From positions 1 through 40,519 of the IMG/VR virus record IMGVR_UViG_3300006793_005564: DNA of 40,519 bases; one strand, written 5' to 3'. Shown piece by piece: positions 8,485 through 40,364 of the stretch; positions within the stretch are counted from its first letter, which is position 1; each line of letters opens with the position of its first letter. The notes under the pieces are model-generated. The model had not been told where the DNA came from. It saw only the letters and a list, made by a program, of their open reading frames with translations, and did no database searches. A program made the position numbers and the translations under genes. The DNA is from a virus.

Positions 8485-9156
8485 ATGAATATTATTGGAC
8501 TAGTAGGGTTTATAGGATCAGGTAAAGACACAGTAGCAAACATGTTTGTTGACAATCATGGCTGTGTACAGGACAGTTTTGCCGCTCCCCTCAAAGACTT
8601 ATGCTCAACTATATTTGGTTGGGAAAGACATTTACTCCAAGGTGATACTATTGAAAGCAGAGACTTTAGAGAGACCCCAGACCTCTATTGGACTAAAAAA
8701 CTTAATATTGATAACTTTACTCCTAGATTAGCACTACAACTAATGGGAACAGAAGTACTTAGAAATCACTCTCATGAAGATATTTGGCTAAACAGTTTAG
8801 AATATAGATTGAGAATAAGGCATCAAACAGATCCTTGTGTTGTTATAAGTGATGCTAGATTTCAAAACGAATTATCATTAATAAAATCTATGAATGGCTT
8901 TGTTATTTGGGTACAACGTGGAGAACTACCCAGTTGGTATGATGTTGCAAAAACATCTCAAACAAATGCTGTTAATAGAAAAATAATGCAAACACGTTAT
9001 AACGAAGTTCATGAAAGTGAATGGAATTGGGTAGGCCATCCCGTAGATTATATTATTAAAAATAATGGCACGTTAGACGAGTTAATACAGCAAGTTGCTG
9101 AAATAAGAGCAGACATAGACGTCAAAAACCCGCCTACAGCACTAAAAATTGTGTGA
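8485..9156 (+). CDS. gp1: Deoxynucleoside monophosphate kinase (T4 gp1-like)
   Basis: The enzyme phosphorylates dNMPs to dNDPs, recycling nucleotides from degraded host DNA. The P-loop GFIGSGKDT (residues 8-16) with the K-D-T ending is typical of the gp1 family. It is followed by SFAAPLKDL, then RLALQLMGTEVLRNH and VVISDARFQNEL, which parallel T4 RRLMQALGTDLI and IVPDTRQDHE. The C-terminal DYIIKNNGTLDELIQQV matches the family's final strand and helix. The length, 223 aa, is close to T4 gp1 (241 aa). It sits between neck and sheath genes, unlike a replication cluster position. Confidence 0.85.
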   Translation: MNIIGLVGFIGSGKDTVANMFVDNHGCVQDSFAAPLKDLCSTIFGWERHLLQGDTIESRDFRETPDLYWTKKLNIDNFTPRLALQLMGTEVLRNHSHEDIWLNSLEYRLRIRHQTDPCVVISDARFQNELSLIKSMNGFVIWVQRGELPSWYDVAKTSQTNAVNRKIMQTRYNEVHESEWNWVGHPVDYIIKNNGTLDELIQQVAEIRADIDVKNPPTALKIV

Positions 9157-9228
9157 AGGTATATTTATCTAAAACCCCCAAAACCTTGTTACCCAATATT
9201 CTATAATACCGCATAATACCGTCTTTTG

Positions 9229-9236
9229 GATAAATA
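9229..9236 (+). promoter_or_regulatory. T4-like late promoter for the tail sheath
   Basis: GATAAATA lies 40 bases upstream of the sheath ATG. Unlike the leaderless group it leaves a leader that contains GGGAG before the ATG. Confidence 0.7.
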
Positions 9237-9276
9237 CATGTATCCATAACAAATTATATATAAATGGGAGAACAAT

Positions 9277-12093
9277 ATGGCTACATTAACCTCACCAGGA
9301 GTTAGCATTACCGTAACAGACGAAAGTTTTTACGCGGCGGCTGGCACTGGAACTGTACCTCTTATTGTTATTGCTACAGCAGAAGACAAAACCGCACCAG
9401 ACGGTTCATCAACTGCAAGTTACACAACATCAGCAACTGCTGGTAATGTGTATTTGATCAATAGCCAACGAGAGTTACTTACAAATTACGGTAACCCTAA
9501 CTTTAGAAAAAGTGGGGCAACACCTTTACACGGAGACGAACTTAACGAGTACGGCTTACAAGCGGCTTACAGTTTCTTAGGAATTGCCAACAGAGCATAC
9601 GTCCTTAGAGCTGACATCGACTTGTCAGAACTTACAGGTTCTACATCGGCTCCATCAGCGGCACCGGCAAACGGTTCATACTGGTTAGACACAAGTGCAA
9701 CAACTTGGGGTCTCAAAGAATGGAGCGGAACTGGTTGGGATATTAAACCAACATTATCACCATCTAAAGACCAAGTTACTACAGGAGCCTCACCGGCACC
9801 TAAAGCATCTATTGGTGTAGACGGTAACTATGCAGTTGTTTACTTTCAAGACACTGGCGCAACAATGTCAGATATCAAACTATTTGAAAAGATTTCAGGT
9901 GCATGGTATCAGATTGGTACTACAGGTTGGGACTCAGCATCAAGCGGTGACTTCCAAATCGCTAGACACACTAACGTTCCTTCAACAAGAAGCGGTGGTG
10001 GTGCATTAGCGGCAGGCGATCTATACTTACAAACTAACACATTGAACAATGGTTCAGTAGTTGGTTTAAAACTTTACAACTCTACTACATCAGCATGGAC
10101 TAATCAGTTAGCATCATACAGACAAACATCTGCAGAAGCATACGCTGATTACGGTACTGCAAGTTTAGGTGATCTTTGGTTTAAATATTCATCAGAAGAT
10201 GCAACTGTTAAACTAAAAAGACATAACGGTGCAAGTACATTAAGTATTTCAAGTTCAGCGGCTATAGCCGATGACGTTATTGTTACAACTGGTCATACTA
10301 GTGGTACTACTGCAATCAAACTTGACATCAATGACAGATTTGCTGTTAACGGTGCAAGTGGATATGTTAATGTAACATTCCATAACTTTGATAGTGATTC
10401 AAACGGCAAACTAAGTGTTGATGACATGGTTCAAGCAATTAACTCAGCATTGAGTTCAGCAAACCAAGTTAATACACAGGCAGGATCAATTACATGTTCA
10501 AATGTTTCCGGTAAGATCTCACTAGTTAATAGTGCTGGTACAGACATTAATATTGTTGCTGGAGATGTTTCAGGCTTTAACGCCGCAGACCTAAATCTAC
10601 TAGAGAAAAATAGTAACTGGGAAGATTTAACATTCATATCTTCATCTTCTGCTCCAACAGGAACATTAGCAGATGGTACTTTATGGTACGATAACTTACT
10701 TGACAATACTAATATTGACTTTGTCTTTAAAGGTGCAGACAGTAAGTGGAATTCATATCCATTCGACGTAAACATTGCGGCATCAGAGCCAACAGTACAA
10801 AGTGACAAAGGTTCACTTGTAACTGGTGACTTATGGGTTAGTAGTGCAGACTTAGAAAACTATCCTAAGATTTACAAGTACAATTCAGCATTAGCGGCAG
10901 GTAGCAGATGGGTATTAATTGATAATACAGATCAAATATCAGCAGATGGAATTATATTTGCAGACATGAGAAGTGCTATTACACAAGGCGCCGGCGTTGC
11001 TATGGACAGTGATTGTCCTAATCCTTCAATATATCCTTTGGGAATATTAGGTTGGAACAAACGTTTGTCAGGTGGTAATATTAAGAAGTATTCAACAACT
11101 AACGCAAGATGGGAAGACTACAGCGGCAACTTTGCCAGTGGTGCTCCTAAATTGCTTAGAAAAGCACAAAGAGGTGCAGTTGTTACAGCATTACAATCAG
11201 CATTAGCAAGTAACCAGGATATCAGAAATGAAACTAATAGATATAATCTAATAGCAACTCCAGGTTATGCAGAAACGTTAGATGAAATGATTACACTAAA
11301 CACTGATCGTAAAGAAACAGCATTTGTTATTGCAGACGCTCCTTTAGGATTAGCAAGTGATTCTACTTCAACTCAAGCATGGGCAACTAACACAGCAGTT
11401 GCTACAGCAAACGGCGAAGATGGATTAGTAAGTGGATCAGCATACGCGGCTGTTTACTACCCACATGGTATGTCAACAAACTTAGACGGAACCAACATTG
11501 TTGTTCCTTCAAGTTCAATTGCATTGAGAACACTGGCCTATAACGACCAGGTTGCTTTCCCTTGGTTTGCTCCAGCAGGTTTCCAAAGAGGTATCGTTAG
11601 TAATGCTACTTCAACTGGTTACTTAGATAGAGCAACAGGTGAATTTAAAGCAGTTGCATTGAATGAAGGTCAAAGAGACAGTCTATACAGCAACAAAGTT
11701 AACCCAATTGCTAACTTCCCAGGAAGAGGCATTAACGTATTTGGACAAAAGACTTTAAGTCCTACATCAAGTGCGTTAGACAGAGTTAACGTTGCACGTT
11801 TAGTTGTTTACATAAGAGAAAGACTTGATGATTTAGTTAAGCCATTCTTGTTTGAACCAAACGATGCTTCTACAAGAGCAGACGCTAAAGCAATCGTAGA
11901 TAGATTCTTAGCAAACCTTGTTACTCAAAAAGGTTTATTTGACTTTGTTACAGTTTGTGACACAACAAATAACACCGCAGAAAGGATTGACAGAAACGAA
12001 TTGCACATTGATATTGCTATACAGCCTATCAAAGCAATCGAGTTTATTTACATTCCGATCAGAGTACAAAACACTCTTGGTTCGACTGCATAA
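9277..12093 (+). CDS. gp18: Tail sheath protein gp18-like, enlarged by internal repeats
   Basis: gp18 forms the contractile sheath. The N-terminal TSPGVSITVTDESF and the C-terminal 150 residues (VNVARLVVYIRERLDDLVKPFLFEPND, RADAKAIVDRFLANL, ending near IEFIYIPIRVQNT) are classic sheath signatures. T4 gp18 has 659 aa; this has 938. The excess lies roughly in residues 124-550, where at least six copies of a short unit occur, of the type A-P-x(n)-G-D-L-W-x-x-T...K-x-Y-N-x-W: GSYWLDT, GDLYLQTNT, GDLWFKYSS, GTLWYDNL, GDLWVSSA. These probably form domains on the sheath surface (inference). It has its own late promoter and Shine-Dalgarno and a terminator just after the stop, so it is a separate, strongly expressed unit. 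Confidence 0.92.
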   Translation: MATLTSPGVSITVTDESFYAAAGTGTVPLIVIATAEDKTAPDGSSTASYTTSATAGNVYLINSQRELLTNYGNPNFRKSGATPLHGDELNEYGLQAAYSFLGIANRAYVLRADIDLSELTGSTSAPSAAPANGSYWLDTSATTWGLKEWSGTGWDIKPTLSPSKDQVTTGASPAPKASIGVDGNYAVVYFQDTGATMSDIKLFEKISGAWYQIGTTGWDSASSGDFQIARHTNVPSTRSGGGALAAGDLYLQTNTLNNGSVVGLKLYNSTTSAWTNQLASYRQTSAEAYADYGTASLGDLWFKYSSEDATVKLKRHNGASTLSISSSAAIADDVIVTTGHTSGTTAIKLDINDRFAVNGASGYVNVTFHNFDSDSNGKLSVDDMVQAINSALSSANQVNTQAGSITCSNVSGKISLVNSAGTDINIVAGDVSGFNAADLNLLEKNSNWEDLTFISSSSAPTGTLADGTLWYDNLLDNTNIDFVFKGADSKWNSYPFDVNIAASEPTVQSDKGSLVTGDLWVSSADLENYPKIYKYNSALAAGSRWVLIDNTDQISADGIIFADMRSAITQGAGVAMDSDCPNPSIYPLGILGWNKRLSGGNIKKYSTTNARWEDYSGNFASGAPKLLRKAQRGAVVTALQSALASNQDIRNETNRYNLIATPGYAETLDEMITLNTDRKETAFVIADAPLGLASDSTSTQAWATNTAVATANGEDGLVSGSAYAAVYYPHGMSTNLDGTNIVVPSSSIALRTLAYNDQVAFPWFAPAGFQRGIVSNATSTGYLDRATGEFKAVALNEGQRDSLYSNKVNPIANFPGRGINVFGQKTLSPTSSALDRVNVARLVVYIRERLDDLVKPFLFEPNDASTRADAKAIVDRFLANLVTQKGLFDFVTVCDTTNNTAERIDRNELHIDIAIQPIKAIEFIYIPIRVQNTLGSTA

Positions 12094-12881: not shown

Positions 12882-14213
12882 ATGGCTTTAGACTTTTTAG
12901 GAAAATACAGTGGCGATCAGAAATTTCTACTTAGAGATTTTAGGAATGCCGCAAGATTAACGCCCGGTGTTAATCCGCCAAGACAAAAGTTTGAGGGTTA
13001 TGTAAATTTTATACTTAACCGTGAGCTTTATGCTACTCTTTATGGCGACCAATCAACCAATGAATTTAGAACACAAATCAGTAGTTTAGTTAGAACTGCT
13101 GATTTACCTTCTGTTGTATTCCAAACTGAAACTAAAAATGCATATAACAAAAAAAGAATTGTAAACACAGGTGTTACATATAATCCTGTGAGTATGACAG
13201 TCTTTGATACTGTAGGTAATGAATGGATTACTACATTAATGAAATATTTTTCATATCATTTTATGGATCCTCGTAATAATCAAAAAACTGATGACAGAGA
13301 CATAGCCGCCGGAAATATCAGAGAAGGCGGAGTAGAAAACATTAATTCGTCATATGGTACTACCAGTAACAACAGCCAGTTTGATTCTAATGCCGCTGGT
13401 TATAACTTAAATGCTTCTGCACAATTTTTTGAACGCATTGATTATGTATTGTACCACGGAAACAAAGGTGTCCAATATAGTATTATAAATCCAATGATGT
13501 CAGAATTCAAACCAGGTAGTATAGATTATTCCTCAAGTGATGTGCAAGAATTTACAATGACATTTGATTATGAAAAATTTACAGTATATAATAAACTAAA
13601 CTTTGATTTAGCGGCTGAAGACGTAGACAGATTTGAAGAACTAGGCGCAATTACAGGCGATTTATTTGAAGGTGGTGAAGAAACCAAGCCATTAGTACTA
13701 CAAAAAGCAAACGAAAGAACACTAGGATACTTAGGATCAGAAGAAGACAGTAAAGCCAGGAGTTCACAACCAGCATATGCATCTCCAGTACCACCAGCAG
13801 ATCCAAAAACTGATCCAGACGGCTCCGCAAACGGAACTCAGGAAGACGCAACAGCCACCGGAACAGGTGATGACACAGAAACAAATAATGCACCAGATAA
13901 TGAATCACCTTCAGGAACATACTCAAACCAAATAGGAGAAGGAATCTTAGCAGGTTCATCTGCAGACAGTTCGTTATTTGGCAGTGATATTTTAGGCGAT
14001 ATAGCAGATTCGGCCTTATCTGCAGTACTTAGAGGGCAGAATGTTAAAGATGCAGTTATTAGTACAGCAGTTCATAACATATCAACAGCAATAGGTAGTG
14101 CTATTGCTGAAAACAACGCAACAGAAGAAAGTACTGAAGTTGCAGAAGCAGTTGGTGAAGATAATAAAATAGACCCTACTGCTCCTAATAATGGTGACGG
14201 AGCACCTTCATAA
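12882..14213 (+). CDS. Tail-tube-like protein, possible baseplate-tube junction protein (gp54/gp48-like)
   Basis: Residues 1-260 look like a divergent tube fold: DFRNAARLTPG..., FEGYVNFILNRELYATL, then VRTADLPSVVFQTETKNAYNKKRIVNTG and PVSMTVFDTVGNEW, the same order as in gp19 (here SVERPKL...WDPITVTVRDD). T4 gp54 and gp48 are tube-fold proteins that start tube assembly on the baseplate, so that role is proposed. A second tube paralogue is the alternative. Residues 270-443 are low-complexity Ser/Thr/Asp/Glu/Pro-rich with an Ala-rich helical patch. It follows gp19 by 25 bases with AGGAG upstream, and its stop overlaps the next start as TAATG. Confidence 0.55.
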   Translation: MALDFLGKYSGDQKFLLRDFRNAARLTPGVNPPRQKFEGYVNFILNRELYATLYGDQSTNEFRTQISSLVRTADLPSVVFQTETKNAYNKKRIVNTGVTYNPVSMTVFDTVGNEWITTLMKYFSYHFMDPRNNQKTDDRDIAAGNIREGGVENINSSYGTTSNNSQFDSNAAGYNLNASAQFFERIDYVLYHGNKGVQYSIINPMMSEFKPGSIDYSSSDVQEFTMTFDYEKFTVYNKLNFDLAAEDVDRFEELGAITGDLFEGGEETKPLVLQKANERTLGYLGSEEDSKARSSQPAYASPVPPADPKTDPDGSANGTQEDATATGTGDDTETNNAPDNESPSGTYSNQIGEGILAGSSADSSLFGSDILGDIADSALSAVLRGQNVKDAVISTAVHNISTAIGSAIAENNATEESTEVAEAVGEDNKIDPTAPNNGDGAPS

Positions 14214-18354: not shown

Positions 18355-19965
18355 ATGCCTAGAGGAACCGCGGATACTAGTTTAGTCAAACCTGCTAATC
18401 AGATTTTTGACTATGATGCAAAAACTATACTAGAATTTAAACAATGTGCCGACGAAGTAGACGGTCCGCTATACTTCATGACAAACTTTATGGCGATACA
18501 ACACCCTACTAAGGGTAATATGTCGTTTGAACCGTTTGATTATCAGTTAGACCTCATAGCAAATTACAATCATTACAGATACAGTATCAACATGTTGGGT
18601 AGACAGATGGGTAAAACCACTGTAGCCGCAGGATACTTGCTATGGTATGCAATGTTTAAGCCAGACAGTACAATACTTGTTGCGGCTCACAAAGCCGTTG
18701 GTGCAAGTGAAATTATGCAACGTATACGATATGCATATGAAAGTTGTCCTGATCATATCAGAGCAGGTGTAATGGAATACAATAAAGGTAGTATTACTTT
18801 TGATAATGGTTCACGTATTGTTAGTAGTACAACCACTGAAACTACTGGACGTGGTATGTCCTTAACACTTGTATACTTAGATGAGTTTGCATTCGTTAGA
18901 AATACTATTGCAAAAGAGTTTTGGACCTCACTATCACCGGCATTAGCAACAGGTGGTAAGTGTATTGTTACTAGTACACCAAACAGTGATGATGATACTT
19001 TTGCAACTATTTGGGCAAATGCAATAAACACTTTTGATGAATACGGTAATGAATCAGAAGATGGCACAGGAAGAAATGGATTTAAAGGATACAAAGCAAT
19101 TTGGGACCAACACCCAGACAGAGACAGCACATGGGCGGCACAAGAACGTAACAGTATAGGCGAAGAACGTTTTAGACGTGAGCATGAATGTGAATTTGTT
19201 ATTTACGATGAAACACTGATTAGTTCTTTAAAATTAGTAGACATGAAAGGCACAGATCCAATTAGAACAATGGGACAAGTGCGTTGGTATAAGCATCCAC
19301 ACCCAACATGCACTTATGTAATTGGACTAGATCCGAGTACAGGAACAGGCGGTGACGCCGCAGGTATACAAGTTATAGAATTGCCTACTATGGTACAAGT
19401 TGCAGAATGGCAACATAACCTAACTCCGATCGAAGGGCAAATGAAAGTAATGATGGAAATAATGCAGTACTTACAAGAACTGCAAGTAGCACAGATATAT
19501 TGGAGTGTTGAGAACAACAGTATAGGCGAGGCGGCACTTGTTGTGATCAGAGACACTGGAGAAGAAAGTTTTCCAGGAGACTTTTTGCATGAGCCTAAAA
19601 AAGTTGCAGGTAGACGTGCAAGAAAAGGTTTTCATACAGCACATAGAACAAAAGTAGAAGCCTGTCTAAGTGCTAAACGTTTAATAGAGCAAGATAAAAT
19701 TACACTTAATAGTAAACCTTTACTGTCAGAGTTAAAAAACTTTGTTGCTAAAGGTAACAGTTTTAGTGCTAAACCAGGAGAACATGATGACTTAGTTATG
19801 TCTCTGATGCTAACAATTCGAATGATCAATTTTATTGCTACATTCGAAGATGATGTGTTTACAGCAGTTAATAGCACACTTGCAAATCCAAACGACTATG
19901 GAGATTACGATCAAGATTGGGACGACAACGACGATGACGGTCCTATGCCACTTGGTATACTTTGA
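18355..19965 (+). CDS. gp17: Terminase large subunit gp17-like (packaging ATPase and nuclease)
   Basis: gp17 pumps DNA into the prohead and cuts it at headful. The ATPase domain has Walker A GRQMGKTT (residues 82-89), Walker B VYLDE (173-177) and the coupling motif VTSTPNS. The RNase H-like nuclease domain has VIGLDPSTGTGGD with Asp326 as the first metal ligand, an acidic YWSVENNS segment, and HDDLVMS (477-483) with Asp478 or Asp479 as another ligand. The length, 536 aa, is near T4 gp17 (610 aa) and apparently complete. The ATPase motifs make this one of the most secure calls in the window. Confidence 0.96.
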   Translation: MPRGTADTSLVKPANQIFDYDAKTILEFKQCADEVDGPLYFMTNFMAIQHPTKGNMSFEPFDYQLDLIANYNHYRYSINMLGRQMGKTTVAAGYLLWYAMFKPDSTILVAAHKAVGASEIMQRIRYAYESCPDHIRAGVMEYNKGSITFDNGSRIVSSTTTETTGRGMSLTLVYLDEFAFVRNTIAKEFWTSLSPALATGGKCIVTSTPNSDDDTFATIWANAINTFDEYGNESEDGTGRNGFKGYKAIWDQHPDRDSTWAAQERNSIGEERFRREHECEFVIYDETLISSLKLVDMKGTDPIRTMGQVRWYKHPHPTCTYVIGLDPSTGTGGDAAGIQVIELPTMVQVAEWQHNLTPIEGQMKVMMEIMQYLQELQVAQIYWSVENNSIGEAALVVIRDTGEESFPGDFLHEPKKVAGRRARKGFHTAHRTKVEACLSAKRLIEQDKITLNSKPLLSELKNFVAKGNSFSAKPGEHDDLVMSLMLTIRMINFIATFEDDVFTAVNSTLANPNDYGDYDQDWDDNDDDGPMPLGIL

Positions 19966-26610: not shown

Positions 26611-26643
26611 GGAGCACTAGCAATTATGCTAGTGTTCCTTTTA
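26611..26643 (+). terminator. Strong hairpin/terminator between the AAA+ and TonB-receptor genes
   Basis: The 12-base arms GGAGCACTAGCA and TGCTAGTGTTCC (one G-U pair) flank a four-base loop and are followed by TTTT. I see no convincing promoter between it and the receptor ATG at 26672, so it may act as an attenuator. Confidence 0.8.
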
Positions 26644-26671: not shown

Positions 26672-28246
26672 ATGAAAGTAAGTAAAATGTTGGTAGCACT
26701 AGGTCTTCTGAGTGTGATATTGATTCCAACAAATCTGATAGCAGAAGAAATAGAAGAAGTAATAGTTGTTGGGGCAACTGTTCAAGAAACAGATACTGAC
26801 GCAACACAAGAAGTATCTTTAATAGAAGTACTAATGCCAGCTCAGCCTGATATCCCAGGTGGATATGGTGGGTTTGCAGGATACAACGAAAGAGGTGCTC
26901 AAACAGTACATTCTACAATTTATGTAAATGGTGTACCATCAAACGATTCTGGATCTGGCTGGTATGACTTTGCTCATGACTTAGCAACTGGTTCTGAAAA
27001 AGTAAAAGTAGTAACCGCACCAAACGGTGTTGCTTACGGCTCTGGTTCTTTAGGCGGTGCTGTTTTTATAACAGACTCATTTGAAACAGGTGCTACTGTA
27101 AGGTACGGCGATGAACACGAGTTTGTTAACTTACAATATGGTGAGGAAGACCTCGGGTTCAGTTTAACATCATTTGATGTTAACAATGGTAGTGTTAGGA
27201 CAGATAACGAAGAAGATGACTACTACAATAATGTTTCTGCAAAAGCAATGTTTGATGCAGGTTTGTTAGATGTTGTAGTTACTTATTCAGACTATGAATA
27301 TGATTATGATAATTGTTATACTGCTAGTTTTACTCAGAGTAACGATTGTTTACAAGCAGGTACAAGAGGTACAATAAGTGCTAGGAATGATAATGTAACA
27401 ATTGGTTATACATTCAATGATTCCGAATACTTTACAGAAGGTGTTGCAGGCACACTAAATGAATCAAGTAGATTGTATATCGATACAAGAAGGTCTAAGA
27501 CATTTGGTAAAGCAACTATAACATATGGTTCAACATTAGATCAAGAACAATACAACGAGTACGAGCAAAACAACTCGAGTGCATACTTGTTATCTAACTT
27601 TGGTGCATTTGATATTGGTATTAGAGCGTCAAGTGATGCAACTGTAGTTAGAGCAGGTTTTGAAAAGAATGGTTGGTCAGGTAGTATTGGTAGTAGTTTT
27701 AGGAATCCTGGTCTTTATCAGTTGTATGGTGACTCGTGGGTCCAAGCAAACTCTACATTACTTCCTGAAGAAGCAGTAGGTGGAGAGATTGGATATTACG
27801 GTATTACTGTATTTAGATATAACTTTAGTGAAGGTATCGACTATGATTCACAGAGCTATATGTACATGAACACAGGTAGTTATGCTACTGAAGGTGTAAG
27901 GTATAATAACACGTTTGCTATTCCTTATGGTGGATTAGACATAATGATCGGCTATACAAATAGTGATCAGCCTAGAATACCTGAATGGAAAAGTGCCATC
28001 AATGCATTTTTTACTGTAGGTAACTGGCGTTATACATTTACTCATTCTACTATGCTAGACAGAGAACCAAGTTTATACGATACATCACTTGACAATATTC
28101 AGGCACTTGACTTTAATGTTTCAAGAACATTTGGTCGTTTTAATTTAGCAATGCATGTACAAGATGTATTTGATGATGAGTACGAAGTTTTACCAGGATA
28201 TGGTGCCGGTGGCAGAAGTTTTGTATTGACAGTAATCTACAAATAG
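26672..28246 (+). CDS. Phage-encoded TonB-dependent outer-membrane receptor (BtuB-like)
   Basis: TonB-dependent receptors import scarce ligands such as cobalamin, iron complexes or sugars. Residues 1-24 are a signal peptide ending LIA. EEIEEVIVVGAT (25-36) is a TonB-box-like start. The plug (45-135) includes NERGAQTVHSTIYVNGVPSND and APNGVAYGSGSLGGAVFITD, classic plug strands. The rest is beta-barrel with many alternating aromatic/polar strands. The C-terminus VQDVFDDEYEVLPGYGAGGRSFVLTVIYK matches the BtuB-type end, although the last residue is Lys, not Phe. At 524 aa it is shorter than E. coli BtuB (614 with signal), but frame and both termini are intact. Two Cys near residues 216-228 may make a loop disulfide. 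AGAGG precedes the ATG. The ligand is unknown. Confidence 0.87.
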   Translation: MKVSKMLVALGLLSVILIPTNLIAEEIEEVIVVGATVQETDTDATQEVSLIEVLMPAQPDIPGGYGGFAGYNERGAQTVHSTIYVNGVPSNDSGSGWYDFAHDLATGSEKVKVVTAPNGVAYGSGSLGGAVFITDSFETGATVRYGDEHEFVNLQYGEEDLGFSLTSFDVNNGSVRTDNEEDDYYNNVSAKAMFDAGLLDVVVTYSDYEYDYDNCYTASFTQSNDCLQAGTRGTISARNDNVTIGYTFNDSEYFTEGVAGTLNESSRLYIDTRRSKTFGKATITYGSTLDQEQYNEYEQNNSSAYLLSNFGAFDIGIRASSDATVVRAGFEKNGWSGSIGSSFRNPGLYQLYGDSWVQANSTLLPEEAVGGEIGYYGITVFRYNFSEGIDYDSQSYMYMNTGSYATEGVRYNNTFAIPYGGLDIMIGYTNSDQPRIPEWKSAINAFFTVGNWRYTFTHSTMLDREPSLYDTSLDNIQALDFNVSRTFGRFNLAMHVQDVFDDEYEVLPGYGAGGRSFVLTVIYK

Positions 28247-29718: not shown

Positions 29719-30212
29719 AAATATTAACAGTAGAAGACGTACCATACGAACTTGATACAGTACCGGAGCAGATTGACGATTTAAGATATTGTGCTCTTGA
29801 TGCCTCGGATAAAGAGTGGGTAGACTTCTTCTTTTTACCATTGATCTTTTTGGAGAGTTTTTATGCTCCTGCAATTTGTTTGCAGATAGGTGAACATAAG
29901 GTCCAAATGCCAATGGATTGGAGCATACTATTATGCGACGAGGATATGGGAGGAGTTGAAACTATCCCATTAGCAAGTTTAAATAATAGGGGATTTAGAG
30001 CATTGTCAATGAATCCAATGAGTAACAGAATACCTGATAGTTTAGATGTAACAATAACCAACATATATCAAGACGTAAAATGGTTCTTTCCTAAACTTAA
30101 ACATGGACATCTTTTAGCAGTACCTCTAGAAGATAAGAAAAGTCCTAAGTGTGTATTCTTTGTTAAAGAATTAAATAAGGTACAAGACTTTGATATAGGA
30201 GATTTAATTTAA
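29715..30212 (+). CDS. Unknown conserved-looking protein, 165 aa
   Basis: I do not recognise a named function. It reads as a compact soluble domain: WVDFFFLPLIFLESFYAPAICLQIGEHKVQMPMDWSILL in the first half, then ETIPLASLNNRGFRAL, and DVKWFFPKLKHGHLLAVPLEDKKSPKCVFFVKE at the end. The hydrophobic segment near residue 40 is broken by charges, so it is not an obvious membrane helix. The start overlaps uvsW (ATGA) and the stop overlaps metK (TAATG), so it is co-translated with both. Confidence 0.75.
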   Translation: MKILTVEDVPYELDTVPEQIDDLRYCALDASDKEWVDFFFLPLIFLESFYAPAICLQIGEHKVQMPMDWSILLCDEDMGGVETIPLASLNNRGFRALSMNPMSNRIPDSLDVTITNIYQDVKWFFPKLKHGHLLAVPLEDKKSPKCVFFVKELNKVQDFDIGDLI

Positions 30213-31309
30213 TGTATGAATTTACTAGTGAGAGTGTCAGCAGAGGACACCCAGACAAAGTAGCAGATGCTATTAGCGATGCTGTAGCAACATATCTTAT
30301 TGATGGTAATACTAATCATAGAGCGGCAGTTGAAACACTTGTAACAACTAATATGGTTACTCTTGCAGGAGAATATAAAAGCGACAAGTTTAGCAAAGAT
30401 GTAATTGCACAAATTGTTAGAGATACTGTAAAAAAGATTGGTTACGAACAAGACGGTTTTCATTGGAAACATTTAAAAATATATAACGAGTTACATGGTC
30501 AGTCGCCTGACATTGCAATGGGGACAGATGATTTTGGTGCAGGTGACCAAGGACTTATGTTTGGGTATGCATGTGATGAAACTCCTAATTATATGCCAAG
30601 TGCAATTTACTACAGTCATAAGATTCTCCAAGCATTAGATGATGCTAGGGCGGCCGGTGATGGTGATTGGTTAGGCCCGGATAGTAAAGCACAAGTTACT
30701 TTTAATTATGATAGTGTAGGAAAACCAACAGGCATTAAAACTATTGTATGTAGTACACAACATAGTGATGATGTAAGTACACAAATGGTTAGAGATAATG
30801 TTGAAACTATTATTAGAGAATGTGTTGGTAGCGATTACAACCTGTCAGAGACAGAATTTTTAATTAACCCAACAGGCAGATTTGTAATTGGAGGACCAGA
30901 TGGAGATAGCGGTGTTACTGGAAGAAAAATTATTGTGGATACTTATGGCGGGTATGCTCCACATGGTGGGGGTGCATTTAGCGGTAAGGACTGTACTAAA
31001 GTCGACCGCTCAGCCGCATATATGGCTCGCTACTTGGCAAAGAACATTGTAGCAACAGGCAAGGCAAAAAATGCCACGGTACAATTAAGTTACGCAATTG
31101 GTGTTAAACAACCAACTAGTGTATATGTATATGCAGACGGAGAAGTAAGAAAAGAGTTTGCAGACTACTTTATGGACAATATAGATCTTACTCCAAAAGG
31201 TATTATTGATAGGTTTAAACTATTTGATATAGATTTGACAACTACTACAAACTATGGACACTTTGGTAAAGAAGAAATGCCATGGGAAAAGGTAGAGTTA
31301 AAACTATGA
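30212..31309 (+). CDS. metK: S-adenosylmethionine synthetase (MetK-like)
   Basis: MetK makes SAM from methionine and ATP. The hallmark motifs are all present: GHPDK (residues 12-16) near the start, GAGDQGLMFGYA (109-120; the methionine-site loop), GGPDGDSGVTGRKIIVDTYGG, and GGGAFSGKDCTKVDRSAAY with the phosphate-binding loop. At 365 aa it is slightly shorter than E. coli MetK (384 aa), but no motif is missing. The first codon overlaps the preceding stop (TAATG). It is followed, with overlaps, by apt and a MTA/SAH nucleosidase, so all three are probably co-expressed. Early expression is likely from the promoter at 28226. Confidence 0.95.
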   Translation: MYEFTSESVSRGHPDKVADAISDAVATYLIDGNTNHRAAVETLVTTNMVTLAGEYKSDKFSKDVIAQIVRDTVKKIGYEQDGFHWKHLKIYNELHGQSPDIAMGTDDFGAGDQGLMFGYACDETPNYMPSAIYYSHKILQALDDARAAGDGDWLGPDSKAQVTFNYDSVGKPTGIKTIVCSTQHSDDVSTQMVRDNVETIIRECVGSDYNLSETEFLINPTGRFVIGGPDGDSGVTGRKIIVDTYGGYAPHGGGAFSGKDCTKVDRSAAYMARYLAKNIVATGKAKNATVQLSYAIGVKQPTSVYVYADGEVRKEFADYFMDNIDLTPKGIIDRFKLFDIDLTTTTNYGHFGKEEMPWEKVELKL

Positions 31310-31866
31310 GCATCAGCACAGTAAACATAGATTTAAAAAACCATATTAGAACAGTATCCGGATTTCCTAAAGCAGGTATTGAATTTAGAGACATAACAAG
31401 TTTATTAGAAAATCCAAAAGCATTTAACAAATCACTAATGGATTTAACTGGACTTGCAATGAGTTTTGGTGCTGATAAAATTGTTGGTATCGAAAGCAGA
31501 GGTTTTGTATTCGGGGCACCGCTTGCCAGAGACTTAGAAGTGCCTTTTGTAATGGCAAGAAAGCCAGGCAAGTTACCCGGACAATGTTACACCCAAAGTT
31601 ACGACCTAGAATATGGTAGTGCAAGTTTAAGTATACAATGTAACACATCAGTACTAAGCACTGACAAAGTTATAATCATAGATGACTTAATTGCTACAGG
31701 CGGAACAGCAATAGCCTGTGCTGATATATTATACAATGCATTTGATGTTGCTAAAGAAAATATTTTAGTTTTAGCACTAATAGACTTGCCCGATCTGGGA
31801 GGAAGTGCTATAATACAAGAACAAGGTTACAATGTAAAGACATTGATTGAATTTGAAGGCGAGTAA
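31306..31866 (+). CDS. apt: Adenine phosphoribosyltransferase (Apt-like)
   Basis: Apt converts adenine and PRPP to AMP and pyrophosphate. From the ATG at 31306, which overlaps the metK stop as ATGA, the protein has 186 aa, near the E. coli size (183). The N-terminus KNHIRTVSGFPKAGIEFRDI is the Apt hood. KIVGIESRGFVFGAPLA (59-75) is the base-binding region, MARKPGKLPG follows, and VIIIDDLIATGGT (122-134) is the PRPP loop. An upstream GTG-type start at 31282 would lie inside metK and adds nothing recognisable. The neighbouring nucleosidase would release adenine, its substrate. Confidence 0.95.
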   Translation: MSISTVNIDLKNHIRTVSGFPKAGIEFRDITSLLENPKAFNKSLMDLTGLAMSFGADKIVGIESRGFVFGAPLARDLEVPFVMARKPGKLPGQCYTQSYDLEYGSASLSIQCNTSVLSTDKVIIIDDLIATGGTAIACADILYNAFDVAKENILVLALIDLPDLGGSAIIQEQGYNVKTLIEFEGE

Positions 31867-32444
31867 TGAAAAATATTATTATTATGGCACTAGAGGCCGA
31901 AGCACCAAACATGGCAGAGTGGGAAAATGTATTTTTTACTGGTGTTGGTAAAGTTAATGCGGCAATCACAACTGCTAAGTTATTAGAACGTTATCCAGAT
32001 GTAGAAAATGTTTTTAACTTTGGAACAGCAGGTGGCATAGCACCTAACCTTTCAGGCATACACAAGATGGGCAATTTTGTACAACGTGATATGTTGTGCT
32101 GTCCGTTTGGAGTACCAGAAGGCCAAACACCATTTGAAAGTTACACAAAGTTAACATTTGATTATGAAGCACTGACATGTAGTACAGGTGATAACTTTGT
32201 TACAGATAGCAATTTATCTATTCCAGCAGATGTTGTTGATATGGAAGCCTATGCAATAGCAAAAGCAGTATTAGTTGCAGATTGTGAACGAGGTGATACA
32301 GACGAAGCAGACTTTATAAAGTTTCATTGTTATAAATATATCAGTGACGAAGCAGACGAAAGTTCAAAAGACGATTGGCAGAATAATGTTGCAGACGGTG
32401 AAGAACATTACATTAAAATTTATAAGGAAATAGTTAATGGCTAA
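31866..32444 (+). CDS. mtnN: Methylthioadenosine/S-adenosylhomocysteine nucleosidase (MtnN-like)
   Basis: This family hydrolyses methylthioadenosine, S-adenosylhomocysteine or 5'-deoxyadenosine to adenine plus the ribosyl product. The three catalytic residues of E. coli MtnN (Glu12, Glu174, Asp197) have counterparts: the Glu pair in MALEAE (10/12), Glu127 in VVDMEAYAIAKA, and Asp161 in YISDEAD. TGVGKVNAA (25-33), NFGTAGGI (51-58) and STGDNFV also match. The length is 192 aa against 232 in E. coli; the middle is shortened. The start overlaps the apt stop (TAATG). It completes a SAM to adenine to AMP salvage route. A general purine nucleosidase is the alternative; the motif set favours MTA/SAH. 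Confidence 0.87.
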   Translation: MKNIIIMALEAEAPNMAEWENVFFTGVGKVNAAITTAKLLERYPDVENVFNFGTAGGIAPNLSGIHKMGNFVQRDMLCCPFGVPEGQTPFESYTKLTFDYEALTCSTGDNFVTDSNLSIPADVVDMEAYAIAKAVLVADCERGDTDEADFIKFHCYKYISDEADESSKDDWQNNVADGEEHYIKIYKEIVNG

Positions 32445-32907: not shown

Positions 32908-33577
32908 TCCACAATGCAAGTGGTGTGGCAAGACATTTAAGTCTGAGAGAACTCTTGCTGTCCATATGTGCGTTAGAAAAAGACGCTGGGCAGACAAAGA
33001 TTTAACTCATATTAGATTAGGCTACAGAGTATTTCAGTTGTTTTATGAACTCAATACTTCTGCTACTAAAAGTAAAAGCATGGAAGACTTTATTCGTAGT
33101 CAATACTATGAAGGCTTTACTAAGTTTGGTAGAAGTTGTGTATTGAATGAATACTTACAGCCTGAAAAATTTGCAGAGTGGTTAATTAAAGAAGGTAAAA
33201 AACTAGCAGACTGGAGCAAAGATTCTGTATATGATGAATTCTTATTACAGTATGTTAAAAAGGAACCAGGGCTAAAAGCATTAGAAAGGAATGTAGTGTA
33301 TTTGTCTGAATGGGGACAAGAACATAAATGTGATTGGCAAGATTATTTTAAGTTAGTTAGCACCGCAAGAGCAGTTCATGATTTGCGTAGTGCAAAAATC
33401 TCGCCTTGGTTACTTTATCTAAGTGAAACAGGCGATACATTGTTAACAAGGCTAAGCACAGAACAAATAGGAATGGTAGATCACATAATTGAAGCAAAGT
33501 TTTGGTTAAGTGTATTTGCAAAAAACCCAGAAGAAGTAGAACGTATTCAATCAACATGTAAGGAAGCAGGTATATAA
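32873..33577 (+). CDS. Unknown protein with N-terminal C2HC-type zinc finger
   Basis: Near the N-terminus is CKWCGKTFKSERTLAVHMC, a C-x2-C-x12-H-x-C finger, so zinc-mediated nucleic-acid or protein binding is likely. The remaining 200 residues are helical, with Trp/Tyr/Leu-rich segments (LGYRVFQLFYELNTS, FAEWLIKEGKKLADWS, LRSAKISPWLLYLSETG) and no known motif. The start is uncertain: ATG at 32873 or 32864, or TTG at 32852; all lie inside the preceding gene. The stop overlaps thyX (TAATG). A regulator or replication accessory role is inferred from the finger and operon only. Confidence 0.7.
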   Translation: MTKQSKTSSVSDPQCKWCGKTFKSERTLAVHMCVRKRRWADKDLTHIRLGYRVFQLFYELNTSATKSKSMEDFIRSQYYEGFTKFGRSCVLNEYLQPEKFAEWLIKEGKKLADWSKDSVYDEFLLQYVKKEPGLKALERNVVYLSEWGQEHKCDWQDYFKLVSTARAVHDLRSAKISPWLLYLSETGDTLLTRLSTEQIGMVDHIIEAKFWLSVFAKNPEEVERIQSTCKEAGI

Positions 33578-34977: not shown

Positions 34978-35005
34978 TTGACAAAACACAGATATTTGCT
35001 ATAAT
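34978..35005 (+). promoter_or_regulatory. Sigma70-type promoter cassette A
   Basis: TTGACA and TATAAT are separated by 16 bases. The stretch from GGTTGACA through TATAATA is identical to cassette B at 36776. GGTAGGAGT precedes the ATG at 35041. Confidence 0.85.
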
Positions 35006-35040: not shown

Positions 35041-35298
35041 ATGAACTTATTGGAAATCAAAAAAGCCGTTCAAAGCGGAAACTTCAGTTTAGCAGAACTT
35101 AATGAGCTTGGTGCTTATATCAATTCTGTAAAAACTTTCAATGCTAAAACTAGCATCAACGTTGGCGACAAAGTATACGTGGTTCAAAAGACCAAACGTA
35201 CTTTAGGTACTGTTGAAAAAGTCAACATTAAAAAAGCCATTGTGACTTTGCCAGAAGGCCGTTACAATGTTCCTCTTTCAATGTTAGAATCTGCATAA
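35041..35298 (+). CDS. Small KOW/SH3-like protein, 85 aa
   Basis: The N-terminal half is helical (LLEIKKAVQSGNFSLAELNELGAYI). The C-terminal half, INVGDKVYVVQKTKRTLGTVEKVNIKKAIVTLPEGRYNVPLSML, is a short beta-barrel pattern of the KOW/SH3 type that often binds nucleic acid or ribosomes. The start at 35041 follows GTAGGAGT; an in-frame start at 35008 lies at the transcription start and is unlikely. A lipoprotein gene follows nine bases after the stop. The function is unknown. Confidence 0.75.
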   Translation: MNLLEIKKAVQSGNFSLAELNELGAYINSVKTFNAKTSINVGDKVYVVQKTKRTLGTVEKVNIKKAIVTLPEGRYNVPLSMLESA

Positions 35299-35307
35299 GG
35301 AACCCAA

Positions 35308-36774
35308 ATGAGAATATCAAAATCTGCAGGGTTAATCTGTATAGTTTTTCTCATTGGTTGTGGTGGAAGCGGAACATCGCCTTCTGTTGCGTTGGAACCA
35401 CTTACACCGCCACCAACATCACCGCCACCAACACCACTATTTAATACAGAACCAATTGTATTAGATGACCCACAAACATACTACAATACGATTTGTAGTA
35501 GTCCTGTAATCTCTTCGGTTATACCAATCGATATAAACACAGATGAATATGATGATTTTGTAATTCATTACTGGTGCGATCAAGAAGAATTCGGTACTTC
35601 TGTTAGAGGTGAAACTGCTAACATTCTTGTAGCATTTGTCAGTGATGGTTTTGGTGGTTACAATGTAGACAACTATAATGTATTTGGCGAAAGTTATCCT
35701 AGTCTAGGTGGTGCAAGTAGAAAGTTCAAAGTGTTTGACATCAATGGCGACGGCAAACAAGATATTGCGTATGCTATGAATAACGAAGATGGCCGTAGTG
35801 CATATTCGTGGGAAGATCAACTAAGCAACGGCACACAACCAACTGTATTGTTAAGTACTGAAACAGGATTTACTGTTGAGCGTATGGGAGAAGAAGACTG
35901 GGGACATGCTGTTAGTATAACTGAATCAGGCGATGTTGTGTTTGCAGGATTTAATTACGGCACACAGGCATATAGATTACAAGGAGAGGAATGGATTGAT
36001 GTTACATCAGAGTATCCTACAGTTAGTCCTTCGGCACATTTGATAAAAAATGGCACTATAGCAAATGCTGAAAGGCAACCAGACGGTTTTGGATTCTACT
36101 TAACCAAAGTTACCAATGGCGTTTGGGAAAGGTTTGCAGAATATATGTTTACAAAAGACTTTGATATACAATGGGAGTCTTGGAATAACAGTGGCACAGG
36201 AAACTATGACCCATATCCTGTATCAACATTCTATGGTAAAAAGTATATAGGAGGCATGTTTGATACAATGTGCGAATTTGATGGTATGTTAATTGCAAAA
36301 TTAAATGCCGCTACTCTCAAAGATGGGTCAGAACCTATTGAGGGGCAATATTATCAAGAGACAGATACATACCCTGTAAACATGTTGATGTTTTTTGCAC
36401 TAGTTGATGGAGAAATAGTGTTGCAAGATAGCCCTATTACAGTTGAAGACATAAATGTAAATTACAACAACTGGACTTGCAATGATATAAACAATGATCA
36501 AGGCAGTGATATTGTTGCTAGTGTATTCTCTGAAACATGGATTGATAGCAGAGAATATAGGGGCGGTGTGCCGATTGTTTATCTCAATGATGGAACTGGT
36601 AGTTTAACAAGTGTTGATATTAGCGAATGGCCCACATTCTCACAAGAAGTAGATACTGCTGGATTTATGCATGATATTGACAATAATGGCACCACAGATC
36701 TCATTATTCACACCCTAAGTACCCATCAAGTTAGGGCAGATATAGAGATTTATACCACAAATAGTGGCATTTAG
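35308..36774 (+). CDS. Lipoprotein with FG-GAP/VCBS-like calcium-binding repeats (beta-propeller candidate)
   Basis: Residues 1-17 form a lipoprotein signal with lipobox LIGC (Cys18). The residues after Cys are Gly-Gly-Ser, not Asp, so outer-membrane sorting is expected in a proteobacterium. A Pro-rich linker (30-44) follows. At least four acidic loops of the D-x-N-x-D-x-x-x-D type occur: DINTDEYDDF (75-84), DINGDGKQDI (144-153), DINNDQGSDI (about 392-401) and DIDNNGTTDL (about 456-465), as in FG-GAP/VCBS beta-propeller proteins. It has 488 aa, with AAGGAA before the ATG. The ligand is unknown. It is transcribed early with the KOW-like gene. Confidence 0.8.
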   Translation: MRISKSAGLICIVFLIGCGGSGTSPSVALEPLTPPPTSPPPTPLFNTEPIVLDDPQTYYNTICSSPVISSVIPIDINTDEYDDFVIHYWCDQEEFGTSVRGETANILVAFVSDGFGGYNVDNYNVFGESYPSLGGASRKFKVFDINGDGKQDIAYAMNNEDGRSAYSWEDQLSNGTQPTVLLSTETGFTVERMGEEDWGHAVSITESGDVVFAGFNYGTQAYRLQGEEWIDVTSEYPTVSPSAHLIKNGTIANAERQPDGFGFYLTKVTNGVWERFAEYMFTKDFDIQWESWNNSGTGNYDPYPVSTFYGKKYIGGMFDTMCEFDGMLIAKLNAATLKDGSEPIEGQYYQETDTYPVNMLMFFALVDGEIVLQDSPITVEDINVNYNNWTCNDINNDQGSDIVASVFSETWIDSREYRGGVPIVYLNDGTGSLTSVDISEWPTFSQEVDTAGFMHDIDNNGTTDLIIHTLSTHQVRADIEIYTTNSGI

Positions 36775-36777
36775 TGG

Positions 36778-36805
36778 TTGACAAAACACAGATATTTGCT
36801 ATAAT
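36778..36805 (+). promoter_or_regulatory. Sigma70-type promoter cassette B
   Basis: TTGACA and TATAAT are separated by 16 bases, starting three bases after the lipoprotein stop. Identical to cassette A through the -10 box. GGTAGGAG precedes the ATG at 36840. Confidence 0.85.
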
Positions 36806-36839: not shown

Positions 36840-37355
36840 ATGCAAACATTAGTAATCCATACACAACACAAAGAAAACTACGGTGCTCACGACTGGAATG
36901 GTGAGGGTGAATGTCCTCAGTATTGGAAGTTCAAGGGCGGTAGCACTTACTTTGTGACTGACCTAACTGGTAAGCAGATCAACAAGATCGCCCAGCATGG
37001 TATTCCTACCCTCTCAGCAATGATTGAGAGTAGCAATGAAAGTTTCGAAGAATATATCCTGGATTGGGAAATCCGTGACCTTGGTAAAAATGGCGACGGC
37101 AAAGGTCCTATTTGCGAACCATGGGAAACTCCAGTAGAGTTTTACTGGAAGATGGACCGTTGGTTATGTCGTACCCATCACACTCCCAATCCTGAATATA
37201 GCCATTGGAACCGTGCCATTATTGGCAAGGCAGAGCAATGGATTCCGTTAGAAGAAAACGGACGTTCAGACTACCAATGTCAGTATAAGACTGCTAATGG
37301 TTGGTTTGATTCAAGCTCTGATCAACTCAAAGCAGAAATACAAGGAGCGGCGTAA
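36840..37355 (+). CDS. Unknown early protein, 171 aa
   Basis: I do not recognise the family. It is soluble and rich in Trp, Gly, Glu and His, beginning TLVIHTQHKENYGAHDWNGEG, then CPQYWKFKGGSTYFVTDLTGK and WEIRDLGKNGDGKGPICEPWETP. The many Trp and His residues suggest a binding protein. GGTAGGAG lies close before the ATG. Its stop overlaps the next start (TAATG). Confidence 0.75.
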   Translation: MQTLVIHTQHKENYGAHDWNGEGECPQYWKFKGGSTYFVTDLTGKQINKIAQHGIPTLSAMIESSNESFEEYILDWEIRDLGKNGDGKGPICEPWETPVEFYWKMDRWLCRTHHTPNPEYSHWNRAIIGKAEQWIPLEENGRSDYQCQYKTANGWFDSSSDQLKAEIQGAA

Positions 37356-39221: not shown

Positions 39222-40364
39222 ATGGGTATGGACCAAAAAATACTCGATATTCTCGGCAGAGAAAAAAACAGACAAGATAATTCAATAGAACTCATAGCAA
39301 GTGAAAACTATGCCAGTGAGGCAGTGATGGAACTAAGCGGAAGTATATTTACAAATAAGTATGCTGAAGGTTATCCAGGAAAACGTTACTATAATGGTTG
39401 CGACCACATGGACGAAATTGAGTCTATGGCTATAGAAGAAGTTACTAAACTGTTTGGTTGTAACTTTGCTAATGTACAACCACATTGCGGAGCAAATGCC
39501 AATACGGCAGTTTACCAAGCATTCTTAGAACCAGGTGATAAGATACTAGGCATGGACTTAGCAAGTGGTGGACATTTGAGCCACGGGTCACCACCTAACA
39601 TTTCAGGTAAAATTTACCAAGCATATCATTATGGCGTAGATGCCGAAGGGTTATTAGATTACGATGCTATAATGGACCAAGCAAAAGAAGTACGACCACA
39701 GATGATTGTTGCTGGTGCTAGTGCATACCCAAGACAAATAGATTGGGCAAAGTTTAGAATTATAGCAGATGAAGTAAATGCTTTACTTCTAGTTGATATG
39801 GCACACTACAGCGGTCTTATAGCAGGTAAATGCTACGATAGTCCTATTCAGTATGCTGATGTAGTAACAAGTACAACACACAAGACGCTACGCGGTCCTA
39901 GGGGCGGTATTATACTGTGGAACAAAGAAGAATACAGTAGACGTATTAATAGTGCAATCTTCCCAGGCACACAAGGTGGCCCATTAATGAATATGATTGC
40001 CGCTAAAGCACAATGTTTTGTTGAAGCAAATTCTTCTGCATTTGGCATGTATGCAAATGATGTATTAGTAAATGCTAGAGCATTTGCAGAACAACTTACA
40101 GCAAATGGATTTGAATGCTTGACAGGAGGCACAGATTCGCATATAATATTACTTGACTTAACAAACAGAGGAATGAGCGGTAAGTCCGCGGCAAACTTAT
40201 TAGAGATGAATGGTATAACAGTTAACAAAAATGGTATACCAAACGACCCTAGGAGTTTTACAGAAACAAGTGGTATCAGGTTAGGTACTGCGGCTGAAAC
40301 AACTAAAGGCCACGACACTCAATGGTTTAGAAATTTAGCAGATGAGATTGCCGATATTATATAA
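39222..40364 (+). CDS. glyA: Serine hydroxymethyltransferase (GlyA-like)
   Basis: GlyA transfers the serine side-chain carbon to tetrahydrofolate, giving glycine and methylene-THF. This PLP enzyme shows IELIASENYAS, NKYAEGYPGKRYYNGC, QPHCGANANTAVYQA, VDMAHYSGLIAG (Asp192) and the PLP-lysine motif STTHKTLRGPRGG with Lys221. It has 380 aa against 417 in E. coli, with the loss mainly near the C-terminus and no core motif missing. With ThyX, which returns THF, it could feed dTMP synthesis without dihydrofolate reductase. The stop overlaps the mazG start (TAATG). Confidence 0.95.
   Translation: MGMDQKILDILGREKNRQDNSIELIASENYASEAVMELSGSIFTNKYAEGYPGKRYYNGCDHMDEIESMAIEEVTKLFGCNFANVQPHCGANANTAVYQAFLEPGDKILGMDLASGGHLSHGSPPNISGKIYQAYHYGVDAEGLLDYDAIMDQAKEVRPQMIVAGASAYPRQIDWAKFRIIADEVNALLLVDMAHYSGLIAGKCYDSPIQYADVVTSTTHKTLRGPRGGIILWNKEEYSRRINSAIFPGTQGGPLMNMIAAKAQCFVEANSSAFGMYANDVLVNARAFAEQLTANGFECLTGGTDSHIILLDLTNRGMSGKSAANLLEMNGITVNKNGIPNDPRSFTETSGIRLGTAAETTKGHDTQWFRNLADEIADII

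Follow-up and report, generated by a model that had tools for sequence, protein, structure and literature searches.

A predicted early FG-GAP-type lipoprotein of marine phages is related to lipoproteins of SAR86 bacteria and evolves independently of a phage BtuB-like receptor

Organization of the locus

The window, that is, the whole stretch of viral DNA analysed (40,519 nucleotides, positions 1 to 40,519 of IMG/VR record IMGVR_UViG_3300006793_005564), carries on its plus strand a gene for an FG-GAP-type lipoprotein, which is the second gene of a two-gene cassette headed by a predicted early promoter, and, further upstream, a gene for a BtuB-like TonB-dependent receptor. The features considered here are the following:

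26611-26638, plus strand: terminator-like hairpin separating the AAA gene from the receptor gene, with no early promoter after it
26672-28246, plus strand: BtuB-like TonB-dependent receptor, 524 aa, proposed in the initial annotation as partner of the lipoprotein
34978-35005, plus strand: predicted early promoter (sigma-70, extended -10) ahead of the two-gene cassette, TTGACA-N16-TATAAT, 12/12 match, TG before the -10 box
35041-35298, plus strand: small protein of 85 aa without Pfam match, first gene of the cassette, found upstream of the lipoprotein also in L002, L008, L026 and L056
35308-36774, plus strand: FG-GAP-type lipoprotein gene, 488 aa, ATG start, AAGGA upstream
35308-35361, plus strand: signal peptide and lipobox LIG-C18, Gly at +2, read directly; Cys18 invariant in 20 phage sequences
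35395-35439, plus strand: Pro/Thr-rich tether, read directly; most relatives have one
35530-35556, plus strand: acidic loop 1, DINTDEYDD, residues 75-83; N77, D79 and D83 invariant
35737-35763, plus strand: acidic loop 2, DINGDGKQD, residues 144-152, corresponding to the second FG-GAP_3 stretch; not conserved in subfamily B
36484-36510, plus strand: acidic loop 3, DINNDQGSD, residues 393-401; D393, N395, D397 and D401 nearly invariant
36673-36699, plus strand: acidic loop 4, DIDNNGTTD, residues 456-464; D456, G461 and D464 nearly invariant
36778-36805, plus strand: second predicted early promoter, identical over about 31 nt to the copy at 34978, preceding 36840-37355

The lipoprotein family

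The lipobox, Pro-rich tether and four acidic loops on which the initial annotation was built were all borne out. The lipobox lies in the context LIG-CGGSG, with no Asp at +2; both C and G are conserved across relatives, and a lipobox with Gly at +2 is present in all phage members. The Pro-rich stretch spans residues 34-43. In the alignment of 20 phage relatives, whose rows are open frames with some start codons placed manually at the lipobox, loop 1 varies at its first D and loop 2 is absent from the diverged subfamily B. Shuffled sequences of the same composition contained on average 0.13 loops of the calcium-type form D-x-[ND]-x-[DN], and four loops were reached in 0 of 5000 shuffles. The mature protein has a pI of 4.05 and is predicted to be directed to the outer membrane, lipid-anchored in the bacterial envelope.

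The claim that the phage encodes a lipoprotein with a propeller signature holds as well. Pfam FG-GAP_3 (PF13517) scored 31.1 bits against a cut-off of 26.9 (E 3.6e-7), which several relatives also passed, and a search of the PDB with the family profile (alignment A5, 20 sequences) rendered the integrin alpha-4 propeller (E 2.5e-8), a match restricted to the approximately 120 C-terminal residues that form the last two blade-like segments. Internal repeat matches were weak to moderate, the best one (92.6% probability) involving these same two segments. From sequence, this FG-GAP/integrin-type signature suggests a putative propeller-like fold. Family members are 488-568 aa long, and the lipoprotein matched no PHROG and none of 50,697 phage records.

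In close pairs dN/dS is 0.06-0.21, which indicates that this is a working gene, and the gene is under strong purifying selection. Its sequence has nonetheless diverged fast among phage relatives: beyond its near-copy, the distance from the window gene is 0.7-2.2, as compared with 0.05-0.3 for the helicase. Since dN/dS stays well below 1, this divergence does not amount to positive selection.

Early promoters bounding a cassette

The two promoter copies (34978 and 36778) bound a cassette of 1.8 kb, the second copy lying just 3' of the lipoprotein gene. Perfect matches to TTGACA-N16/17-TATAAT number six on the plus strand of the window and none on the minus strand, where 0.05 would be expected per strand of 40.5 kb, and other genes of the window too have early promoters ahead of them. 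The sites share the extended consensus GGTTGACAAA-N8-TTTGCTATAATA. Between 24000 and 40519 of the window and in relatives, this consensus is followed by a ribosome site, AGGTAGGA, and is found on the plus strand only. T4 late promoters (TATAAATA) occur in the window at chance level.

Among the 25 intact lipoprotein loci with enough upstream sequence, 24 have an early-type site ahead of the lipoprotein (14 perfect, 10 with one mismatch), located 100-381 bp upstream of the codon for the lipobox Cys, and the promoter is also present ahead of the lipoprotein in the unrelated phages L054 and L055, which have another genome plan. These promoters are sequence matches, and early expression of the lipoprotein is thus predicted at the promoter level. 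No such early promoter was found upstream of the receptors of lipoprotein-bearing phages. A lipoprotein-free clade (L031, L033, L041, L047, L049, L051 and L052) has a perfect early promoter 40-75 bp upstream of the receptor; going by promoter presence in these two sets of phages, early expression would be swapped between receptor and lipoprotein.

Repeated early promoters are described as mediating gene shuffling in T4-like phages, in the elements known as PeSLs (Arbiol 2010 and Comeau 2014, as reported in PMC4503421; see also the related discussion in PMC4177764). By analogy, swapping of promoter-bounded cassettes may have been the route of exchange here. The comparison with PeSLs at this site covers the promoters: in both cases early promoters recur at the borders of a unit that phages gain, lose and exchange. 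Two loci, L010 and L004, retain an intact receptor and, from the lipoprotein, about 40 residues of the C-terminus. The remnant in L010 (18681-19353) stands in place of the full gene beside early promoters at 18636 and 19360, and could represent a cassette deletion caught mid-way or an assembly joint.

The BtuB-like receptor and its relation to the lipoprotein

That the phage also encodes a real TonB receptor, as initially annotated, is supported by a Plug domain (PF07715; 33.6 bits against a cut-off of 23.9, E 5.8e-8) and by a profile comparison with solved receptors, in which BtuB was matched with E 3e-20 and the others with 1e-4 or worse. A TonB-box-like start (IEEVIVVGA-like) is conserved in most of receptor alignment A4, and the sole NCBIfam match was TIGR01779, the B12-receptor equivalog (E 2.5e-10; 39.5 bits, far short of its cut-off of 599.7). 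Judging from these matches, the protein is a genuine, short, BtuB-like TonB-dependent receptor. Phage receptors of this kind (ca. 520 aa) were observed in 48 loci, mostly belonging to one T4-like group, and also in L034, L035, L038 and L048, in another genome context; no isolate in the phage collection carried a member of this family. A TonB-dependent receptor from a marine megaphage (PMC9723777) is similarly phage-encoded and from the sea, but it is of the SusC type, whereas the present one is BtuB-like, short, and found in T4-like phages. Two further phages, L014 and L027, have the receptor and no FG-GAP lipoprotein, and encode a small lipoprotein (13151-13651 and 8967-9500, respectively; lipobox LTGC, ca. 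160 aa, without NCBIfam match) between MetK and the phosphoribosyltransferase.

The comparison drew on 48 loci with receptor relatives and about 30 with relatives of the lipoprotein. The expected co-occurrence of the two genes in related phages was found, the receptor being present in 17 of the 19 lipoprotein contigs that are informative, i.e., that have enough upstream sequence, but it largely reflects the shared position of both genes within a single conserved block, and each of them is also found alone. The order in one phage group is SSB, AAA, receptor, helicase, small protein, MetK, phosphoribosyltransferase, SAH nucleosidase, two small proteins, ThyX and lipoprotein, and this order from SSB to lipoprotein is conserved with some losses. 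The two lipoprotein contigs without receptor, G002 and G009, contain no Plug protein of any sort that we could find (G001 also lacks the receptor, and was left uncounted with just 3.3 kb upstream of the lipoprotein), and the receptor without lipoprotein is seen in many contigs, including G018 (98.6 kb), G026 (72.7 kb) and G021 (46 kb). Either gene served as a seed for the scans behind these counts, which do not represent independent events, and absence from a contig, which is a metagenomic fragment, is weak evidence.

The two genes were also compared between close pairs. L017 and L068 have lipoproteins that are 96% identical (dS 0.11) and receptors that are 59% identical (dS 1.69), while L017 and L018 have receptors that are 97% identical (dS 0.09) and lipoproteins that are 74% identical (dS 1.12), so that each of the two has been exchanged without the other. 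In a mirror-tree analysis of 14 genomes, the correlation of the lipoprotein with the receptor (0.59) was the lowest and that with the helicase (0.93) the best, and the partial correlation between lipoprotein and receptor given the helicase was -0.36. The analysis gave no sign of specific co-evolution of the two proteins beyond background. In addition, the genes lie 7 kb apart and have separate promoters. The proposal that the lipoprotein is the partner of the receptor at 26672-28246, in a dedicated barrel-lipoprotein pair, finds little support in swaps, distances and promoters; a looser functional link, open to any variant, would be compatible with these same tests. Looking for independent swaps is a cheap way to decide whether neighbouring phage genes are truly partners.

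Relatives in SAR86 bacteria

The nearest cellular relatives of the lipoprotein are found in SAR86 cluster bacteria (L096-L106 and L114). They are homologous over the full length, with 36-42% identity, a similar length and, in most of them, a lipobox. Unlike the phage gene, they are chromosomal single genes in varied neighbourhoods, with no phage block around. They were recovered by searching bacterial genomes with a subfamily A profile, and the full-length gene is present, with E below 1e-100, in 16 of 107 SAR86-family genomes, many of which are incomplete. No such receptor was found within 8 kb of the lipoprotein gene in the SAR86 relatives, and matches to the phage receptor family in SAR86 genomes were no more than weak.

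The lipoprotein of L025, which occupies the usual slot beside ThyX, groups with the SAR86 sequences (100/100) in a tree built without subfamily B, and a single clade for the phage sequences was rejected (AU p 1e-63, a difference of 88 log units); L025 forms a long branch, so that its exact place is less sure. On this tree, the phage members of subfamily A do not form a single clade, and at least two exchanges of the lipoprotein between phages and SAR86-type bacteria would be needed, their direction being presumed. The relationship of the phage and SAR86 sequences also hints that these phages may infect SAR86-like hosts.

Possible functions of the lipoprotein

We tentatively favour the view that this is an early FG-GAP lipoprotein, related to those of SAR86 and carried in a mobile cassette, that changes the infected cell's surface, with superinfection exclusion as the most likely purpose. 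It builds on the lipoprotein signal, the FG-GAP signature, the cellular relatives with repeated exchange, the early promoter, the purifying selection and the independence from the receptor, and from there we infer the direction of transfer, the membrane, the topology, the binding target and the exclusion. The cassette would be transcribed by the host RNA polymerase right after DNA entry, and the lipoprotein would leave the cytoplasm, receive its lipid at Cys18 and end up in the outer membrane, where its propeller-like domain would bind or cover a component of the host surface. The most likely benefit would be to shut out superinfection, the receptor on which this phage or its competitors depend being masked or altered. 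Early expression, a lipidated envelope protein, bacterial relatives and replacement by diverged versions fit a change of the infected-cell surface, which is a probable effect of the protein. Exclusion, in turn, fits the early promoter, since superinfection-exclusion proteins are typically made early (PMC9586334). Llp of phage T5, which is lipidated and periplasmic, blocks a TonB-dependent receptor (PMC9586334), and the present protein resembles Llp and the Cor protein of T1-like phages in being a phage lipoprotein, predicted to be made early and targeted to the outer membrane. Llp and Cor are, however, small and not propellers, whereas the FG-GAP proteins described here, at 488-568 aa, lie outside that small-lipoprotein class; no sequence shared with T5 Llp was detected.

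The SAR86 lipoprotein may instead serve a housekeeping purpose, and the phage would do no more than boost it, which would count against exclusion. The phage would then reinforce a surface function of its host without keeping other phages out, by capturing ligands for the TonB receptors of the host, stabilizing its envelope or aiding adhesion. A stand-alone role of this kind agrees with the single gene that SAR86 carries in varied contexts away from receptors, with the gene having been exchanged more than once between phages and SAR86-type bacteria, and with purifying selection, but the scarcity of the full-length gene among SAR86-family genomes, even though many are incomplete, indicates that the lipoprotein is not a core function, and we consider this alternative possible, if on the unlikely side. 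A nutrient-uptake pair, in which the lipoprotein would cap the phage BtuB-like receptor as BtuG caps BtuB, with which it is co-encoded (PMC10404256), the two together raising cobalamin-like uptake for the methionine/SAM cycle, appears improbable. The frequent presence of both genes in lipoprotein-bearing contigs, the much better match of the receptor profile to BtuB than to any other solved receptor, and the nearby genes for MetK, SAH nucleosidase, phosphoribosyltransferase and SHMT, with their possible link to methionine synthesis, would fit it; the independent swaps, the mirror-tree result, the contigs with one gene only and the separate promoters oppose it. As in Bacteroides BtuB/BtuG (PMC10404256, PMC6143338), a predicted acidic-propeller lipoprotein and a BtuB-like barrel are encoded in one genome, but the suggestion of a BtuB/BtuG-like pairing is mostly not sustained: the profile search of the PDB rendered integrins only, plus one chance ferritin match, at E up to 1, with no sequence match to BtuG, the bacterial relatives lack a neighbouring receptor, and these relatives are gammaproteobacterial whereas BtuB/BtuG is from Bacteroidota. 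No cobalamin riboswitch turned up in a search for one. Use of B12 by the phage ribonucleotide reductase was considered as a further reason for uptake and ruled out, the enzyme being of class Ia and not B12-dependent. Two reasons for B12 are thereby removed.

Exclusion aimed at the phage-encoded rather than a host receptor could be imagined from the action of T5 Llp on a TonB-dependent receptor (PMC9586334) and from the predicted location of both proteins in the same envelope. It requires a matched pair, however, and pairing is broken by the swaps and by the genomes with only one of the genes, which makes this variant very improbable. We regard as equally remote that the protein belongs to the virion or tail, or that it is inert cargo picked up by chance: in G002 the gene is placed after tail-fibre-like genes, but a lipobox and an early promoter are ill-suited to a virion part, and a dN/dS far below 1 is ill-suited to inert cargo.

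To extend surface alteration with superinfection exclusion to a general scheme is more doubtful. It might be that large propeller-type early exclusion lipoproteins have been taken by marine phages from SAR86-type hosts and are swapped as versions by promoter-bounded cassettes, so that the host surface would be re-coated by a variant of a lipoprotein native to that host. To our knowledge, phage proteins that rework the Gram-negative cell exterior are known mainly from coliphages and are mainly tiny. Here, an uncultivated group of marine phages keeps a large lipoprotein whose relatives are in SAR86, an abundant ocean group. Should it exclude other phages, it would constitute a new class; should it feed the host, it would be a new kind of virus-carried envelope gene. 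The SAR86 relatives of the lipoprotein, the evidence for at least two exchanges, the near-perfect early promoter and the purifying selection are reported here as new, and no paper on phage FG-GAP lipoproteins or on SAR86 phages with TonB receptors was found in the open-access literature.

Neighbouring metabolic genes

MetK, the phosphoribosyltransferase and an MTA/SAH nucleosidase are encoded together at 30212-32444 of the window, with ThyX at 33577 and SHMT at 39222. These genes may make up a phage-borne set for the recycling of SAM and adenine, in which the nucleosidase would split SAH and the transferase would salvage the adenine.
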